Shown one piece after another: positions 941 to 6,994 of a stretch of DNA of 64,000 nt. Source of the stretch: Streptomyces violaceoruber. GTDB lineage: Bacteria > Actinomycetota > Actinomycetes > Streptomycetales > Streptomycetaceae. The stretch covers positions 1 through 64,000 of the forward strand of contig JODI01000020.1 of assembly GCA_000720805.1 (NCBI GenBank), given 5' to 3'. Below the pieces are notes generated by a model. That model was given only the letters and a program-made list of their open reading frames with translations, was not told the DNA's origin and ran no database searches. The translations under genes and the position numbers were made by a program. The first letter of the stretch is position 1. The number at the start of each line of letters is the position of its first letter.

Positions 941-1420
941 ATGGATGAAAGACCTCCTCCGCTGTCGGTAATCGAAATGCGGGCATGGCGTAGCTTGCTG
1001 CAGATGAGTGCGCTTCTTTCCAGTAGAAGCGCACGACCCATTCAGGAAGAATTCGGCCTCTCCGAGGCAGACTGCGCTGTCCTGGCCGAACTCACGCAGA
1101 CGGTGAACCCGGACGGCTGGATGCTCATTTCGCAGCTGGTCGCCTGCCTGGGCTGGGAAAAGAGCCGACTGTCCCACCACCTGGGCCGGATGGAGAAGCG
1201 TGGCCTGGTAGCCAGGAGGGAGTACGTCGACGACCGGCGCACAGCACTCGTCTCCGCCACTCAAGCAGGCCGAAAAGCAATAATTGAGGCAACCCCTCGG
1301 CAGGCCGAGGAAATTCGAAAACTCTTCTTCGATCATCTATCTCCGGGGCAAATAATGTGGCTCATGGAGATCGCGGAGCGCATTATCGAGAAGGTGCATG
1401 CTGCTCCCGAAACTCCGTAA
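941..1420 (+). CDS. MarR-family transcriptional regulator
   Basis: This 159-residue protein has the MarR winged-helix layout: an N-terminal dimerization helix (MRAWRSLLQMSALLSSRSAR), the reading helix segment SQLVACLGWEKSRLSHHLGRMEKRGLV at about residues 64-90, and the wing with the conserved Asp-Asp-Arg-Arg (VDDRRTALVSAT). The ATG at 941 is preferred because the N-terminal helix starts there; the open frame continues upstream without MarR similarity. Ribosome-site support is weak. It precedes the response-regulator/flavoenzyme operon by 29 nt on the same strand and may belong to the same redox or stress circuit. The ligand is unknown. Confidence 0.85.
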   Translation: MDERPPPLSVIEMRAWRSLLQMSALLSSRSARPIQEEFGLSEADCAVLAELTQTVNPDGWMLISQLVACLGWEKSRLSHHLGRMEKRGLVARREYVDDRRTALVSATQAGRKAIIEATPRQAEEIRKLFFDHLSPGQIMWLMEIAERIIEKVHAAPETP

Positions 1421-1449: not shown

Positions 1450-3126
1450 GTGCCAGAGAAGACACAGTCGGCGCGGGCCGTCATCATGACCGTCGACGAC
1501 GACCCGGGAGTTTCCCGGGCTATCGCCAGGGACCTGCGGCGACGCTACGGCGCCTCCCACCGGATCGTACGGGCCGAGTCCGGAGACGCGGCCCTCGAAG
1601 CGCTGAACGAATTGAAGCTGCGCGGTGACCAGGTGGCCGTCATTCTGGCCGACTACCGCATGCCCCACATGAACGGCATCGAGTTCCTCGAGCAAGCCAT
1701 GGACGTCTTCCCCGGAGCCCGTCGCGTCCTGCTGACGGCCTACGCGGACACCAACGCCGCCATAGACGCCATCAACGTTGTGGACCTCGACCACTACCTG
1801 CTCAAGCCCTGGGATCCTCCGGAGGAGAAGTTCTACCCGGTCCTGGACGAACTGCTGCAGGTATGGCGCACCGGCGATCACCGGGCCGTGCCCAGCATCA
1901 AAGTCATCGGACACCGGTGGTCCGCCCGGTCCTCCGCGACGCGCGACTTCCTGGCCCGCAACCAAGTCCCCTACCGCTGGTACTCCACCGACGAACCCGA
2001 GGCCCAGCGACTGCTGCTCGCCGCCGGCCAGGACGGCCGGCGTCTCCCCGTGGTGATCACCGCGGACGGAACACCTCTGGTCGACCCCGAGCCGACCGAA
2101 CTCGCCGAGCGAGCAGGCCTGGCGACCACCCCCACCACCGACTTCTACGACCTGGTCGTCATCGGTGGCGGGCCGGCCGGCCTCGGCGCAGCCGTCTACG
2201 GCGCCTCCGAGGGATTGCGCACCGTCCTGGTCGAGCGATCGGCGACCGGCGGCCAAGCCGGACAGAGCTCCCGCATCGAGAACTACCTGGGCTTTCCCGA
2301 CGGCGTAACCGGAGCACAGCTGACCAGCCGCGCGCGGCGACAGGCGACGAAATTCGGAGCGGAGATCCTCACCGCACGCGAGGTCACAGGACTCGAAGCC
2401 AACGGTGCCGCCCGGATCGTACAGTTCTCCGACGGCTCCACGATCGCCGCGCGCAGTGTCATCCTTGCCACGGGAGTGTCCTACCGCCAGCTGCCCGCCT
2501 CCGGCGCCGACGTCTTGGCCGGCCGCGGTGTCTACTACGGCTCCGCACTGACGGAGGCCACCTCCTGCGAAGGCCACGACGTGTACATCGTGGGTGGCGC
2601 CAACTCTGCAGGACAAGCGGCCATACACATCGCGCGCACCGCCAAATCGGTGACGCTTCTCATCCGCGGGCCGTCCCTGACGGCATCGATGTCGCACTAC
2701 CTGATCCAGCAGATCGAGCAGACAGCCAACATCCAGTTGCGCTGCCACACGGCCGTCGAGGCCGCGCACGGCGACGGGCACCTGCAGCAGCTCACCCTGC
2801 GCGACACCGAGACCGGCCAGAGCGAACTGGTGGACACACAGTGGCTCTTCGTCTTCATCGGCGCCGCACCGCTCACCGAATGGCTGCACGACACGACCCT
2901 GCGGGACAGCCGCGGCTTCATCCTGGCCGGACCCGACCTGACGCCCGACGGACGGCCGCCGGCGGACTGGGACCTGGATCGCCCCCCGTACCACCTGGAA
3001 ACCAGCATCCCTGGAGTGTTCGTGGCCGGAGACGCGCGAGCGGAGTCCGCCAAGCGCGTCGCCTCCGCCGTCGGTGAAGGAGCCATGGCCGTCATGCTTG
3101 TCCACCGCTACCTGGAGCAGTCATGA
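1450..3126 (+). CDS. Response regulator fused to thioredoxin-reductase-like FAD oxidoreductase
   Basis: The start is GTG 1450, preceded by a GGCTGGGGGG ribosome site. The 558-residue product has three parts. Residues 10-130 are a receiver domain with acidic triad D16-D18, phosphoacceptor D68 (LADYRMP), T96 and K119. Residues about 150-220 resemble a glutaredoxin fold (IKVIGHRWSARSSATRDFL, then LPVVITADG with the expected cis-Pro) but lack the active-site cysteines. From about 230 there is a thioredoxin-reductase-like domain with the FAD loop GGGPAGLGAAVYG, an NAD(P)H loop VGGANSAGQAA (about 381) and the C-terminal FAD segment GVFVAGDARAESAKRVASAVGEG. No CxxC is present in the reductase domain. 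There is no DNA-binding domain, so the output is probably enzymatic. The stop overlaps the kinase start (ATGA). Confidence 0.88.
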   Translation: MPEKTQSARAVIMTVDDDPGVSRAIARDLRRRYGASHRIVRAESGDAALEALNELKLRGDQVAVILADYRMPHMNGIEFLEQAMDVFPGARRVLLTAYADTNAAIDAINVVDLDHYLLKPWDPPEEKFYPVLDELLQVWRTGDHRAVPSIKVIGHRWSARSSATRDFLARNQVPYRWYSTDEPEAQRLLLAAGQDGRRLPVVITADGTPLVDPEPTELAERAGLATTPTTDFYDLVVIGGGPAGLGAAVYGASEGLRTVLVERSATGGQAGQSSRIENYLGFPDGVTGAQLTSRARRQATKFGAEILTAREVTGLEANGAARIVQFSDGSTIAARSVILATGVSYRQLPASGADVLAGRGVYYGSALTEATSCEGHDVYIVGGANSAGQAAIHIARTAKSVTLLIRGPSLTASMSHYLIQQIEQTANIQLRCHTAVEAAHGDGHLQQLTLRDTETGQSELVDTQWLFVFIGAAPLTEWLHDTTLRDSRGFILAGPDLTPDGRPPADWDLDRPPYHLETSIPGVFVAGDARAESAKRVASAVGEGAMAVMLVHRYLEQS

Positions 3127-4577
3127 GCAGCCACCTCATGCCGTGCCACACCCAGGAAATACGCAAGCTTTTCCTCTTCGAGCGGCTCGCGCCCGAACAA
3201 CTCGACCGCCTGTGCGCCGACGGGCGCGTCGAACTCTACGAAGCCGGGCCCGTCTATGCGGAGGGACAGCCGGCGAGTTGCTTCTACGTTCTGATCGAGG
3301 GCACCGTCGTCATGTCCCGCCGCATCGGCCACGACGACGTCGAGGTCAACCGCACCTCGCAACCCGGCGTCTACGCCGGCGCCATGCAGGCCTATCTGGG
3401 AGAGCGGACTCCGCAGGTCTACAACAACAGCCTGCGTACGACCGAGCCGACACGTTTTTTCGTGCTGCCGGCCGACACTTTCGCGGCCGTCATGCAGGAG
3501 TGGTTCCCCATGGCCGTCCACCTGCTGGATGGCCTGTTCTTCGGAGCGAAGAACACACAGCAAGCCATCGGGCAGCGAGAGCGGCTCCTGGCACTGGGAT
3601 CGCTGTCAGCGGGGCTCACACACGAGCTCAACAACCCGGCCGCGGCGGCCGCCCGCGCCGTCGCCACGCTGCGTGAACGGGTGGCCGCCATGCGGCACAG
3701 CCTCGCCGTCATCACCGAGGGCCCGTTCACGAAGGCCACACTCACCACGCTGGTCGACATGCAGCAGCAGACGGCCGACCGCGTCGCGATGGCGCCGTCA
3801 CTCAGCCCGCTGGAAGCCGCCGACCGGGAGGACGCTCTCACCGACTGGCTGGAGGACCGAGGCATTGGTCATGGCTGGCAGGTGGCGCCGGCTTTCGTCC
3901 AAGCAGGCCTGGACACTTCATGGCTTGACCACATCGAAGGGATGGTCGGCGAGACAGTACTCCCGACCGCCATCGAGTGGCTCAGTCAGACCGTCGAGAC
4001 CGAAATGCTGACCAACGAGATCGCAGAATCCACCGCGCGCATCTCCCACCTCGTTGACGGAGCCAAGCAGTACGCGCAATTGGACCGAGCACCCTTTCGT
4101 CTGGCCGACGTTCACGAACTGCTCGACAGCACCCTGCTGATGCTGGCAGGCAAGATCGGCCCCCACATCTCGGTCGTGAAGCACTACGACGACACGCTCC
4201 CGAAGGTTCCTGCCTATCCGGCCGAACTCAATCAGGTCTGGACCAATCTGATCGACAACGCCATCAGCGCCATGGCGCATACCAGAGCACCAGGCACGCT
4301 GACGGTACGCACAGCCCGCAAACAAGATCGACTCCTTGTCGAATTCCGCGACACCGGAAGCGGTATCGATCCCGAAATCCGCGAACGCATCTTCGACCCC
4401 TTCTTCACGACCAAACCGGTAGGCGAAGGCACCGGCCTCGGCCTCGACATCTCCTGGCGGATCGTGGTCAACAAGCACCACGGCAGCCTCCACGTCGAGT
4501 CCCACCCCGGGGACACCCGCTTTCAGGTCCTGCTCCCTCTCACCACCCCCGATCCCTACGCCAAGGACTACCAATGA
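3123..4577 (+). CDS. Soluble sensor histidine kinase with N-terminal cyclic-nucleotide-binding-type domain
   Basis: This 484-residue protein has an N-terminal Crp/cNMP-binding-like beta-barrel (LFLFERLAPEQLDRLC to about residue 135), then an H-box with His167 (SAGLTHELNNPAAAAARA), an N-box LNQVWTNLIDNAISAM (about 369-384), and G motifs FRDTGSGIDPEIRERIFDPFF and GEGTGLGLDIS. No membrane segment is visible, so it acts in the cytoplasm on an internal signal. It overlaps the upstream fused response regulator by 4 nt and the zinc-finger gene downstream by 4 nt. By position it is the likely phosphodonor for D68 of the fusion protein. The sensor ligand (cyclic nucleotide, redox cofactor or other) cannot be read from sequence. 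Confidence 0.88.
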   Translation: MSSHLMPCHTQEIRKLFLFERLAPEQLDRLCADGRVELYEAGPVYAEGQPASCFYVLIEGTVVMSRRIGHDDVEVNRTSQPGVYAGAMQAYLGERTPQVYNNSLRTTEPTRFFVLPADTFAAVMQEWFPMAVHLLDGLFFGAKNTQQAIGQRERLLALGSLSAGLTHELNNPAAAAARAVATLRERVAAMRHSLAVITEGPFTKATLTTLVDMQQQTADRVAMAPSLSPLEAADREDALTDWLEDRGIGHGWQVAPAFVQAGLDTSWLDHIEGMVGETVLPTAIEWLSQTVETEMLTNEIAESTARISHLVDGAKQYAQLDRAPFRLADVHELLDSTLLMLAGKIGPHISVVKHYDDTLPKVPAYPAELNQVWTNLIDNAISAMAHTRAPGTLTVRTARKQDRLLVEFRDTGSGIDPEIRERIFDPFFTTKPVGEGTGLGLDISWRIVVNKHHGSLHVESHPGDTRFQVLLPLTTPDPYAKDYQ

Positions 4578-4927
4578 CCCAGGACGCCGCGATCGACCTC
4601 ACCGTCCCGCCCAGCGGCAACGGCTGTGTCGAGTGCCTAGCCAGCGACGGCTGGTGGTTCCACCTCCGGCGCTGCGCCAGCTGCGGCCACATCGGCTGCT
4701 GCGACAGCTCACCGTCCCAGCACGCCACCGCCCACTACCGCGCAAGCGGACACCCCGTGGTGCAGAGCTTCGAGCCCGGAGAGGACTGGTTCTGGGATTT
4801 CAACCGCGGGGACGTTCTGGACATCGAAGTCGCCCTTGCACCGCCCGAGAGTCACCCCGCCGACCAACCGGTCCCGGGGCCGGTGGGCCGAGTGCCGCAG
4901 GACTGGGTACGCCACCTGAGGCGTTGA
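4574..4927 (+). CDS. UBP-type zinc-finger protein
   Basis: This 117-residue protein carries the zf-UBP pattern: CVEC at about residues 18-21, CASCGHIGCC at about 37-46, then His residues in SQHATAHYRASGHP. In eukaryotes the domain binds the free C-terminus of ubiquitin. Bacterial single-domain versions are known but their ligand is not established. The tail (about residues 85-117) is Pro-rich and probably disordered. The gene overlaps the histidine kinase by 4 nt (ATGA) and ends the operon. It may be a zinc or peptide-tail binding accessory to the flavoenzyme or kinase; that is inference from coupling only. Confidence 0.85.
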   Translation: MTQDAAIDLTVPPSGNGCVECLASDGWWFHLRRCASCGHIGCCDSSPSQHATAHYRASGHPVVQSFEPGEDWFWDFNRGDVLDIEVALAPPESHPADQPVPGPVGRVPQDWVRHLRR

Positions 4928-5024: not shown

Positions 5025-5101
5025 GCCAGATTTCGGTTGTGCTCCCGCAGAGTCAACGGCGACCACCGTGACGCGGGCACACGCTACGCCGAGGAGTGAC
5101 C

Positions 5102-6994
5102 GTGCCTCCCGCCAACTCAACGATGACTGGGCAGACTGCCTGTAGCAAGGACGTTCGCAGTCCGCTGCGCACCTTTATGCGTACTGAGACCGCCAGTGCG
5201 GCGGCTCTGCTGGCAGCCACCGTCGCTGCGCTGGTATGGGCCAACACCGCACCCGGCACCTATGAGTCGTGGTGGCACATCCAGATGTCTCTGCGGTTCG
5301 GCCCTGCCGAGATCTCGCTGAATCTGCGTAATTGGGTGAACAGCGGGCTGATGGCCCTGTTCTTCTTTGTGGTGGGCCTCGAGGCCCGGCGCGAATTCGA
5401 CCTTGGTGAGCTACGCGAACGCCGTCGGCTCACGCTACCTCTGGTAGCCGGGCTCAGCGGCATGCTTGTCCCCGTCGCCCTCTTCCTCACTGTCAACGCC
5501 GGCCATTCCTCGGTACATGGCTGGGGCGCCGCGATGTCTACCGACACCGCCTTCGCGCTCGGCATCCTCGCCGTCTTCGGTGACCGATTGCCCGGCCGCC
5601 TCCGTCTCTTCCTGCTTACGGTCGCGGTTGCCGACGACTTCATCGCGCTGGCCGTGATTGCGGTCGCCTACAGCGGGACCATCCACCTGCCTGCGCTCGC
5701 CCTCGCGGTCGGCGTGTTTGCGGCAATGCTGGCCCTGCGCCTGGCCGGCGTGCGCATCTCGGTCGTGTACCTACTGCTGGCTCTGGTGCTGTGGGGAGCA
5801 CTGCTGCAATCCGGAGTGGACCCTGTGGTCAGCGGCCTGGTCATGGGCCTGCTGACGTACGCGCATCCGGCCGAGCGGCACAGTCTGGAGAACGTCACTG
5901 GCCTGTTCCGAAGCTTCCGCGAACAACCGACGCCCGAACTGGAACGCACCCTGCGCCGCGGGCTGTCCTCGACGCTTTCCCCCAACGAGCGGCTCCAGAG
6001 GATGTTCCATCCCTGGACGAGCTTCGTTGTCGTGCCGCTGTTCGCGCTGGCCAACGCCGGCATCACCGTCAGCGCCGGACAACTCGCCGACGCCGTCACC
6101 TCACCCGTAACCCTGGGCATCGTGCTCGGATACGTGGTGGGCAAGCCCATCGGCATTTACGGTGCCACCTGGCTCACCGTGCGCGCGAGCCGGGGAAGAC
6201 TGCGTCCCCCGGTCGGCTGGGGTGCCGTCGCCGCCGGCGGCAGCCTCGCGGGAGTCGGCTTCACCGTATCGCTGCTGATCGCCGATCTCGCCCTCACCGG
6301 AGCCCGCCTTGAGCAGGCAAAGATCGGTGTCCTGGCCGCTGTCGTCTGCTCGTTTTTCCTTACGTGGATGGCCACCGGGCTGCTTGCGCTGCTTCCCCCA
6401 CAGCGCAGGGCCCGTGCGCTGCTGGGGGAAGGGCAGACCATCGTCGACCTCGTCGAACCTGTGGACGTGGAGCGCGACCATATCCGCGGCCCCCTTGACG
6501 CACCGGTCACACTCGTCGAGTACGGAGACTTCGAGTGCCCATACTGCGGAGTGGCGGAGTCCGTGGTGCGCGAACTGCTCGCCAACTTCGGCGACGACGT
6601 GCGCTATGTCTGGCGCCATCTGCCCCTGCCGGATGTCCACCCCAACGCGCAGCTGGCCGCCGAGGCAGCCGAGGCCGCCATGCTCCAGGGCCGGTACTGG
6701 GAGATGCACGACCTGCTGCTGAGCCACCAGGGTGCCCTCCAGGTGAGGCACCTGCTGGCCTACGCGGAACAGATCGAGCTCGACGGCGATCAGTTCCAAG
6801 CGGATCTGCGCCGGCGGGTGGGTGCCGAACGGGTTGCCGAAGATCTGGAGTCCGCGGAACTGAGCGGCGTCTCGGGGACACCGACGTTCTTCGTCAACGG
6901 CCGTCGCCATCATGGTGCCTACGACATCGCCACCCTGTCGGCTGCGGTACGCACTGCCAGGGTGCAGGCCGCTTTGGCGGACAGGAGCGGTTGA
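5102..6994 (+). CDS. nhaA: Na+/H+ antiporter NhaA fused to a DsbA-like thioredoxin domain
   Basis: GTG 5102 is chosen because GAGGAG (5091-5096) lies 5 nt upstream; GTG 5096 is the alternative. The 630-residue protein begins with an NhaA domain (about residues 25-430) of roughly a dozen membrane segments, with family motifs such as [33 protein letters not shown] and the [17 protein letters not shown] stretch that holds the adjacent aspartates used for Na+/H+ exchange. From about 450 follows a DsbA/Thioredoxin_4-type domain with C479-P-Y-C482 ([10 protein letters not shown]) and the cis-Pro loop [10 protein letters not shown]. Ordinary NhaA is about 390-430 residues and lacks this tail. The fusion occurs in other actinobacteria. 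Linking antiport to thiol redox chemistry fits the redox operon just upstream. Confidence 0.9.

Follow-up and report, generated by a model that had tools for sequence, protein, structure and literature searches.

The question raised by three adjacent genes of Streptomyces violaceoruber (assembly GCA_000720805.1, contig JODI01000020.1) is whether a two-component system may act directly on a flavoprotein carried by its own response regulator. The genes lie on the forward strand of the stretch analysed here at its full length of 64,000 nucleotides (positions 1 to 64,000 of the contig, hereafter the window), and encode a response regulator ending in a thioredoxin-reductase-like flavoprotein, a soluble histidine kinase and a UBP-type zinc finger protein. 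On balance, we think it probable that they constitute a two-component system whose response regulator is a phosphorylation-gated flavoprotein. The operon is real and conserved, and apparently unstudied; no functional study of it, or of regulators combining a receiver with thioredoxin reductase, was found in the open-access literature, to which the search was confined. Its elements are the following:

1450..3126, + strand: gene 1, receiver (REC), thioredoxin-fold domain without CxxC, and thioredoxin-reductase-like flavoprotein part without CxxC (558 amino acids, GTG start codon; open reading frame, Pfam, structural model and alignment)
1651..1653, + strand: codon of D68, the predicted phospho-acceptor (alignment, 86 of 86 sequences)
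2539..2550, + strand: site of the thioredoxin reductase CxxC, here G364-S-A-L367 (alignment)
3123..3126, + strand: ATGA overlap of genes 1 and 2 (sequence)
3123..4577, + strand: gene 2, soluble histidine kinase with Crp/cNMP-type N-terminal domain, H-box, insert in the dimerization and histidine phosphotransfer (DHp) hairpin, and HATPase (484 amino acids)
4574..4577, + strand: ATGA overlap of genes 2 and 3 (sequence)
4574..4927, + strand: gene 3, UBP-type zinc finger protein in which Asp44 takes the position of the ubiquitin-binding Arg (117 amino acids)

This anatomy can be read directly from the sequence. An earlier note on this DNA had described three genes joined by 4-nucleotide overlaps, with D68 at the phospho-acceptor position of a response regulator devoid of a DNA-binding domain, and all of this holds: coordinates and both ATGA junctions agree, the alignment places D68 at that position, and the Pfam scan gave no DNA-binding domain in gene 1. 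The domains that it did give there are Response_reg (residues 12-124, above the cut-off) and Pyr_redox_2 (residues 233-544, 108.9 bits versus a cut-off of 26.1), that is, the dinucleotide-binding domains for flavin adenine dinucleotide (FAD) and NAD(P). In gene 2, cNMP_binding (residues 43-125, 35.0 bits versus 27.5) and HATPase_c (residues 367-474) exceeded their cut-offs and HisKA did not (17.4 versus 26.9); nonetheless, H167, E168 and N171 of the H-box are invariant in 88 of 88 kinases, so that an H-box and an HATPase domain are both present. The maximal 19-residue hydropathy (1.36 for the regulator and 1.11 for the kinase, versus 2.62 for an annotated antiporter) is consistent with a cytosolic location of both proteins, which the note had proposed for the kinase. 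Lastly, the layout of the operon is not due to chance, because the 4-nucleotide overlaps recur in relatives and a second full copy exists in the same genome.

An indication that phosphorylation may matter to this regulator comes from the comparison of receivers with and without a kinase. The residues D16, D17, D18, D68, T96, Y116 and K119 are kept in all 86 aligned sequences, so that the receiver is intact, and in all 80 named loci the regulator is followed by a kinase homologue; being the best 80 of 587 confirmed relatives found with the gene 1 alignment (53 are from Streptomyces), these loci are biased towards close relatives. The same is true for 18 more distant regulators (L037-L054), all of which have an adjacent kinase (truncated in L051, where the contig stops); in the 17 whose receiver is complete, DD(D/E), D68, T96 and K119 are all kept. 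In contrast, 22 flavoenzyme matches that cover the receiver, taken from the draw of Actinomycetota genomes described below (the fragment G135:C205 was left out), form a single clade (support 0.895), and no kinase homologue was found in the stretches fetched around them, several of which stop at contig ends. Among the 21 readable members of this clade (the gene of L207 is interrupted and its receiver unreadable), the switch threonine T96 has been lost in 19 and D68 in 14, with L210 keeping T96 and having lost D68. Judged from the alignments, the receiver switch decays in the kinase-less lineage and not in the kinase-linked ones, as would be expected if D68 depended on this kinase. The evolutionary link between kinase and D68 is in this respect an observed one, in agreement with the partnership that had been proposed, and the receiver-intact and receiver-decayed relatives offer a natural experiment on phosphorylation control.

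The three-gene operon is conserved among close relatives and occurs in many actinobacteria. Indeed, a zinc finger gene follows the kinase gene (within 200 nucleotides and on the same strand) in 73 of the 80 named loci; the exceptions are L150, whose stretch stops 259 nucleotides past the kinase, L168, where the match is on the opposite strand, and L094, L139, L144, L158 and L165, without any zinc finger match. In-frame 4-nucleotide overlaps occur at 66 of 80 regulator-kinase junctions and at 65 of 73 kinase-zinc finger junctions. In a wider survey, based on an even draw of 197 Actinomycetota genomes (E <= 1e-60 for flavoenzyme and kinase, E <= 1e-6 for zf-UBP), the flavoenzyme was matched in 44 genomes, the kinase in 22 and zf-UBP in 46, and in all 22 kinase genomes a kinase adjoins the regulator by coordinates (G071 has an additional one elsewhere). 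In two of them (L184 in G174 and L185 in G125) three kinases of one family stand in tandem behind a single receiver-flavoprotein, which suggests several inputs converging on one regulator. Within the genus, the regulator (E <= 1e-200) is carried by 56 of 121 genomes, twice in two of them; the module is, thus, an accessory one.

A further question concerns the nature of the output. The thioredoxin-reductase-like part claimed for gene 1 is confirmed as a fold: a fold search placed 7jyp and the AhpF structure 4xvg first by E-value, with a best TM-score by target length of 0.89 among the matches listed. The corresponding chemistry is not. The best NCBIfam profile, TIGR01292, scored 211.8 versus a cut-off of 343.45, and the AhpF model 166.9 versus 502.9; the CxxC site reads YYGSALTEA, and the site of HRRxxxR, which we take to be the NADPH motif of thioredoxin reductase, reads IRGPSLT, versus HRRDTLR in the thioredoxin-reductase-like protein L006 of the same genome. 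Both CxxC and the full HRRxxxR are absent from the window protein and from 47 of the 47 relatives compared, as well as from further relatives in the kinase-less set; L053 keeps the two adjacent arginines and not the rest. The control L006 has CATC (its match contains one in-frame TGA, and only one open stretch of 262 amino acids was compared), and a second outgroup, L007, lacks CxxC. Hence, it is highly improbable that gene 1 encodes a true disulfide reductase, of the thioredoxin reductase or AhpF type, controlled by the kinase, even though the best profile and the best folds are of these families and some databases call the relatives thioredoxin reductases; on account of the two motifs and the TIGR01292 score, the identification as thioredoxin reductase was rejected.

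AhpF carries thioredoxin folds ahead of its reductase, and a CxxC in such an N-terminal domain is, we assume, an AhpF trait. In gene 1, the AlphaFold2 model (mean predicted local distance difference test, pLDDT, 78.8; predicted template modelling score, pTM, 0.67) contains a beta-alpha-beta-alpha-beta-beta-alpha domain at about residues 150-221 resembling thioredoxin and glutaredoxin folds. The glutaredoxin-like domain of the earlier note survives in this form, as a predicted fold, with no match to a glutaredoxin profile in gene 1 and no CxxC in residues 152-171, the stretch inspected. Since pLDDT falls below 50 at residues 1-7, 109-111, 145-147, 265-287 and 533-539 and pTM is 0.67, we leave the arrangement of the domains uninterpreted. 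The loss of the motifs in all the relatives compared, together with the CxxC-less thioredoxin-fold stretch, would also suit a pseudoenzyme, that is, a thioredoxin-reductase-like part that no longer transfers electrons and acts as a scaffold on which, depending on phosphorylation, the zinc finger or other partners assemble. Yet the alignments show conservation of the glycine motifs that bind FAD and dinucleotides, which would be needless in a mere scaffold; we consider this explanation rather improbable. A lone cysteine, C373, is kept in 87 of 89 aligned sequences; in the comparison with the 47 relatives it is missing from the two Deinococcus forms and from several distant relatives. Judging from these motifs, the protein is likely to be one of three things: a flavoprotein that passes electrons from NAD(P)H to another acceptor, a sensor, or a pseudoenzyme.

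As for the input, the Crp-type sensor domain ascribed to the kinase is present as a domain, the cNMP_binding profile being above its cut-off, but its being a canonical cyclic nucleotide sensor is not supported. The glutamate of the phosphate-binding cassette, which we take to be the cAMP-receptor motif, is replaced by Ala or Ser in 84 of 88 kinases (these include a Nostoc kinase without a cNMP domain) and occurs in none, so that cAMP is not a likely ligand. In the kinase model (pTM 0.39, with residues 137-168 below a pLDDT of 50), helices 204-275 stand between helices 163-199 and 280-320, forming an insert of about 80 amino acids inside the DHp hairpin.

The zinc finger raises a question of its own, namely what a bacterial UBP domain might bind. 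The domain itself is readily recognised: zf-UBP matches residues 18-80 (49.7 bits versus a cut-off of 22.7), the Cys/His pattern of zinc ligands is invariant in 79 of 79 sequences (2 of 74 alignment rows were dropped by a score filter), W28 and W72 are kept in 79 of 79 and W74 in 78 of 79, and the bacterial structure 2IDA is the closest solved relative. The ubiquitin-type binding known from eukaryotic domains is another matter. Presumably, the Arg standing two residues after a ligand Cys of zf-UBP domains reads the ubiquitin C-terminus; the eukaryotic domains compared (USP49, HDAC6 and two USP16 chains, the four eukaryotic ones among the 5 alignments shown of 18 matches) all have C-G-R, versus C-C-D in the bacterial set. 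In the HMMER alignment the eukaryotic Arg falls opposite D44 (USP16) or, with a one-residue gap, opposite S45 (the others), and D44 is present in 79 of 79 bacterial zinc fingers, with Arg at neither 44 nor 45. With Asp standing for the ubiquitin-reading Arg, ubiquitin-type binding appears unlikely. One might still imagine that the zinc finger reads a ubiquitin-like C-terminus such as that of Pup, bringing the system to modified proteins; the aromatic residues W28, W72 and W74 are kept, and in the Actinomycetota draw Pup was matched in 35 of 46 zinc finger genomes versus 51 of 151 others. Nevertheless, this association is confounded by class, no Pup match was found in 11 of the 46 (including G097, which has the full three-gene order), zinc fingers of this kind occur also in Burkholderia, Rhizobium and Nostoc, and the C-C-D reading applies here as well. 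We consider this possibility very unlikely, and ubiquitin or Pup was rejected as the principal candidate ligand on the grounds of the Asp and of the zinc finger genomes without Pup.

Some relatives of the flavoenzyme are found next to the zinc finger without any kinase. On four plasmids (of Rhodococcus pyridinivorans, Rhodococcus sp. DK180, Nocardia farcinica and Streptomyces angustmyceticus), the zinc finger and a flavoenzyme fused to a cNMP domain, with cNMP_binding confirmed in 4 of 4, stand behind dnaK-grpE-dnaJ-cbpM-clpB-trxA; the order dnaK-grpE-dnaJ-cbpM-clpB-trxA-zfUBP-cNMP-TrxR (L026, L172, L173 and L179) is possibly a mobile protein-quality-control island. In Rhizobium leguminosarum the same two genes occur without the chaperones, and in R. 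qingshengii a bare flavoenzyme, with no sensor domain, adjoins the zinc finger. In these kinase-less loci flavoenzyme and zinc finger appear as the constant unit, its control being exchangeable between receiver plus kinase and a fused sensor-type domain. However, a cNMP-fused form of Deinococcus aquaticus has no annotated zinc finger, and zinc fingers also stand without a flavoenzyme or at the end of Na+/H+ exchangers; since each occurs without the other, the two are not exclusive partners. In this last arrangement, zf-UBP forms the C-terminus of exchangers in Deinococcus ficus (L025, 4183-6219) and in an actinobacterium (L069, 1-1695). In a tree that combines REC, cNMP-fused and bare flavoenzymes, the three bare ones group together (0.999) and the six cNMP-fused ones do not; the node ancestral to the REC forms has a support of 0.53, too weak for the order of gains and losses to be read.

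Based on these data, the scenario of a phosphorylation-gated flavoprotein can be outlined as follows. The soluble kinase would sense a signal via its degenerate Crp-type domain and autophosphorylate at H167; the phosphate would pass to D68, and this would change the activity or the partner binding of an FAD- and NAD(P)H-type oxidoreductase of the thioredoxin reductase/AhpF fold. As the flavoprotein lacks a disulfide of its own, electrons could not be passed to thioredoxin along the classical route and would need a different acceptor. The zinc finger protein probably serves the flavoprotein as a partner or adaptor, because the two adjoin also where the kinase is absent.

Several observations weigh against this scenario. 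The enzyme may be inactive. In L201, D68, T96 and K119 are all kept and the 5 kb downstream contain no kinase (on the upstream side the contig end cuts the stretch), and, the kinase-less regulators being one clade, a single kinase loss followed by repeated decay may account for the pattern. The three-gene order, whose rarity in other genomes would have spoken against a conserved system, holds among close relatives and fades in the wider draw: the zinc finger is directly behind the kinase in no more than 8 of the 22 genomes with a kinase (G000, twice, G123, G182, G153, G172, G097, G094 and G044). A ninth copy, in G023, is split between two frames; in G174 the zinc finger lies about 3.3 kb past the three tandem kinases, and in G125 a partial match about 3.6 kb past them; G168 has its zinc finger upstream, and the kinase found downstream is a more distant one (34% identity). 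By simple count, 14 of the 63 listed zf-UBP places have a listed flavoenzyme match at a distance of at most 5 kb. Outside this draw, regulator-kinase pairs without an annotated adjoining zinc finger occur in Caballeronia, Deinococcus aetherius and Gloeothece (the plasmid gene tables are incomplete). The Gloeothece kinase has cNMP_binding and HATPase_c, and the Nostoc edaphicum kinase, which carries a receiver in place of the cNMP domain, lies beyond two other annotated genes.

The direction of the signal might also be reversed, with the flavoprotein as the input: the redox state of FAD or of bound NAD(P)H would set the stability of the D68 phosphoryl group or feed back on the kinase, and the zinc finger or another protein would be the output. 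The lack of CxxC and of the full NADPH arginine motif makes a classical turnover enzyme doubtful, and relatives with decayed receivers keep the flavoprotein, which, therefore, does not need the receiver. On the other hand, receivers as a rule control the domain fused to them, the cNMP-fused form has a sensor-type domain in the place of the receiver, as expected if the flavoprotein is the output, and in 14 of the 22 kinase genomes the kinase is not immediately followed by an intact zinc finger. We regard this alternative as unlikely, if worth keeping in mind, and retain the phosphorylation-gated flavoprotein.

The surroundings of the operon differ from those of its relatives. A second complete copy of the three genes is present on contig C39 (identity of 82%, 73% and 65% for genes 1, 2 and 3), next to AlkB-like, MBL, DUF4032, divergent universal stress protein and LuxR-type regulator genes, and these five neighbours recur, respectively, in 31, 32, 33, 39 and 23 of the 80 named loci. 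A third zf-UBP paralogue (L171, G000:C3, about 105.6 kb) stands without the other two genes adjoining. Upstream of the window copy lies a further gene:

944..1420, + strand: MarR-family gene (the open reading frame opens at 668; the ATG at 944 is a guessed start)

It ends 29 nucleotides before the regulator, and its co-transcription with the operon is possible; a scan for sigma-70 promoters found none. Directly downstream, at 5096-6994 (+), an NhaA Na+/H+ antiporter is fused to a DsbA/Thioredoxin_4 domain. Neither gene is beside the operon in any of the 80 named loci (0/80, with 20 of the 80 stretches shorter than 15 kb), and the NhaA-DsbA neighbour was rejected as a component of the system on this count, despite the Na+/H+ exchangers with a fused zinc finger mentioned above. 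Farther upstream, a fusion of Fer4_19 and CDGSH iron-binding domains (358-888, +) adjoins a small GNAT-type acetyltransferase gene (122-442). In 2-kb steps, the G+C content is 0.61-0.69 in the first 28 kb of the window (1-28000) versus 0.68-0.75 elsewhere, and this part is possibly an acquired stretch. Because its neighbours differ from those of the relatives and it lies in the stretch of lower G+C content, the window copy looks like an additional, possibly acquired one.

A general role in stress, redox or protein-homeostasis control is probable and is suggested by neighbours only: the universal stress protein beside many Streptomyces copies, and the operons with chaperones, ClpB and thioredoxin in which one kinase-less form lies. 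These neighbours differ between copies, and those of the window copy (the MarR gene and the NhaA-DsbA fusion) recur nowhere among the named loci, which has to be added to the points against our interpretation. More speculatively, and with considerable doubt, one might imagine a widespread module in which a CxxC-less thioredoxin-reductase-like flavoprotein, gated through either a phosphorelay or a fused sensor of the Crp type, and a charge-reversed zinc finger reader couple redox state to protein quality control via a non-disulfide acceptor, possibly the cysteines of the zinc finger.

As far as the literature searched shows, fusions of a response regulator with this redox-enzyme fold have so far only been named. 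The linked kinase, the intact and decayed receivers and the kinase-less fused-sensor counterpart make phosphorylation control of a flavoprotein directly testable, and the loss of the ubiquitin-reading Arg raises the question of the ligand of bacterial UBP zinc fingers. The combination of receiver and thioredoxin reductase has already been named, as a “Mycobacterium-like” architecture (PMC5847659), with a thioredoxin-reductase-like output following the receiver in the same order as in the window; the part of that article concerned names the architecture without mention of a kinase partner, the missing CxxC, the thioredoxin fold, the zinc finger or receiver decay. One database product name likewise begins “Fused response regulator/thio...”. 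With thioredoxin reductase and AhpF the window protein shares the FAD- and dinucleotide-binding folds; it differs in the added receiver, in the absence of CxxC from both the reductase and the thioredoxin-fold stretch, and in the incomplete HRRxxxR. The records named “cyclic nucleotide-binding domain-containing thioredoxin-disulfide reductase” belong to the same CxxC-less flavoenzyme type and in several cases stand beside a UBP zinc finger, whereas their cNMP domain is fused to the enzyme and no adjoining kinase was seen. The zinc finger has the zinc-ligand pattern in common with eukaryotic ZnF-UBP domains (USP16, USP49, HDAC6 and USP5) and with 2IDA; unlike the eukaryotic ones, the bacterial set has Asp for the Arg of C-G-R and an extra invariant Cys43, and unlike other bacterial forms the window protein has neither the N-terminal CxH nor the WCY cysteine. 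Finally, the kinase shares the H-box and HATPase with the AtoS-, EspC- and T2SS_HK-type kinases (its best NCBIfam models, all below cut-off), from which it is set apart by its Crp-type N-terminal domain and by the helical insert of about 80 residues in DHp.

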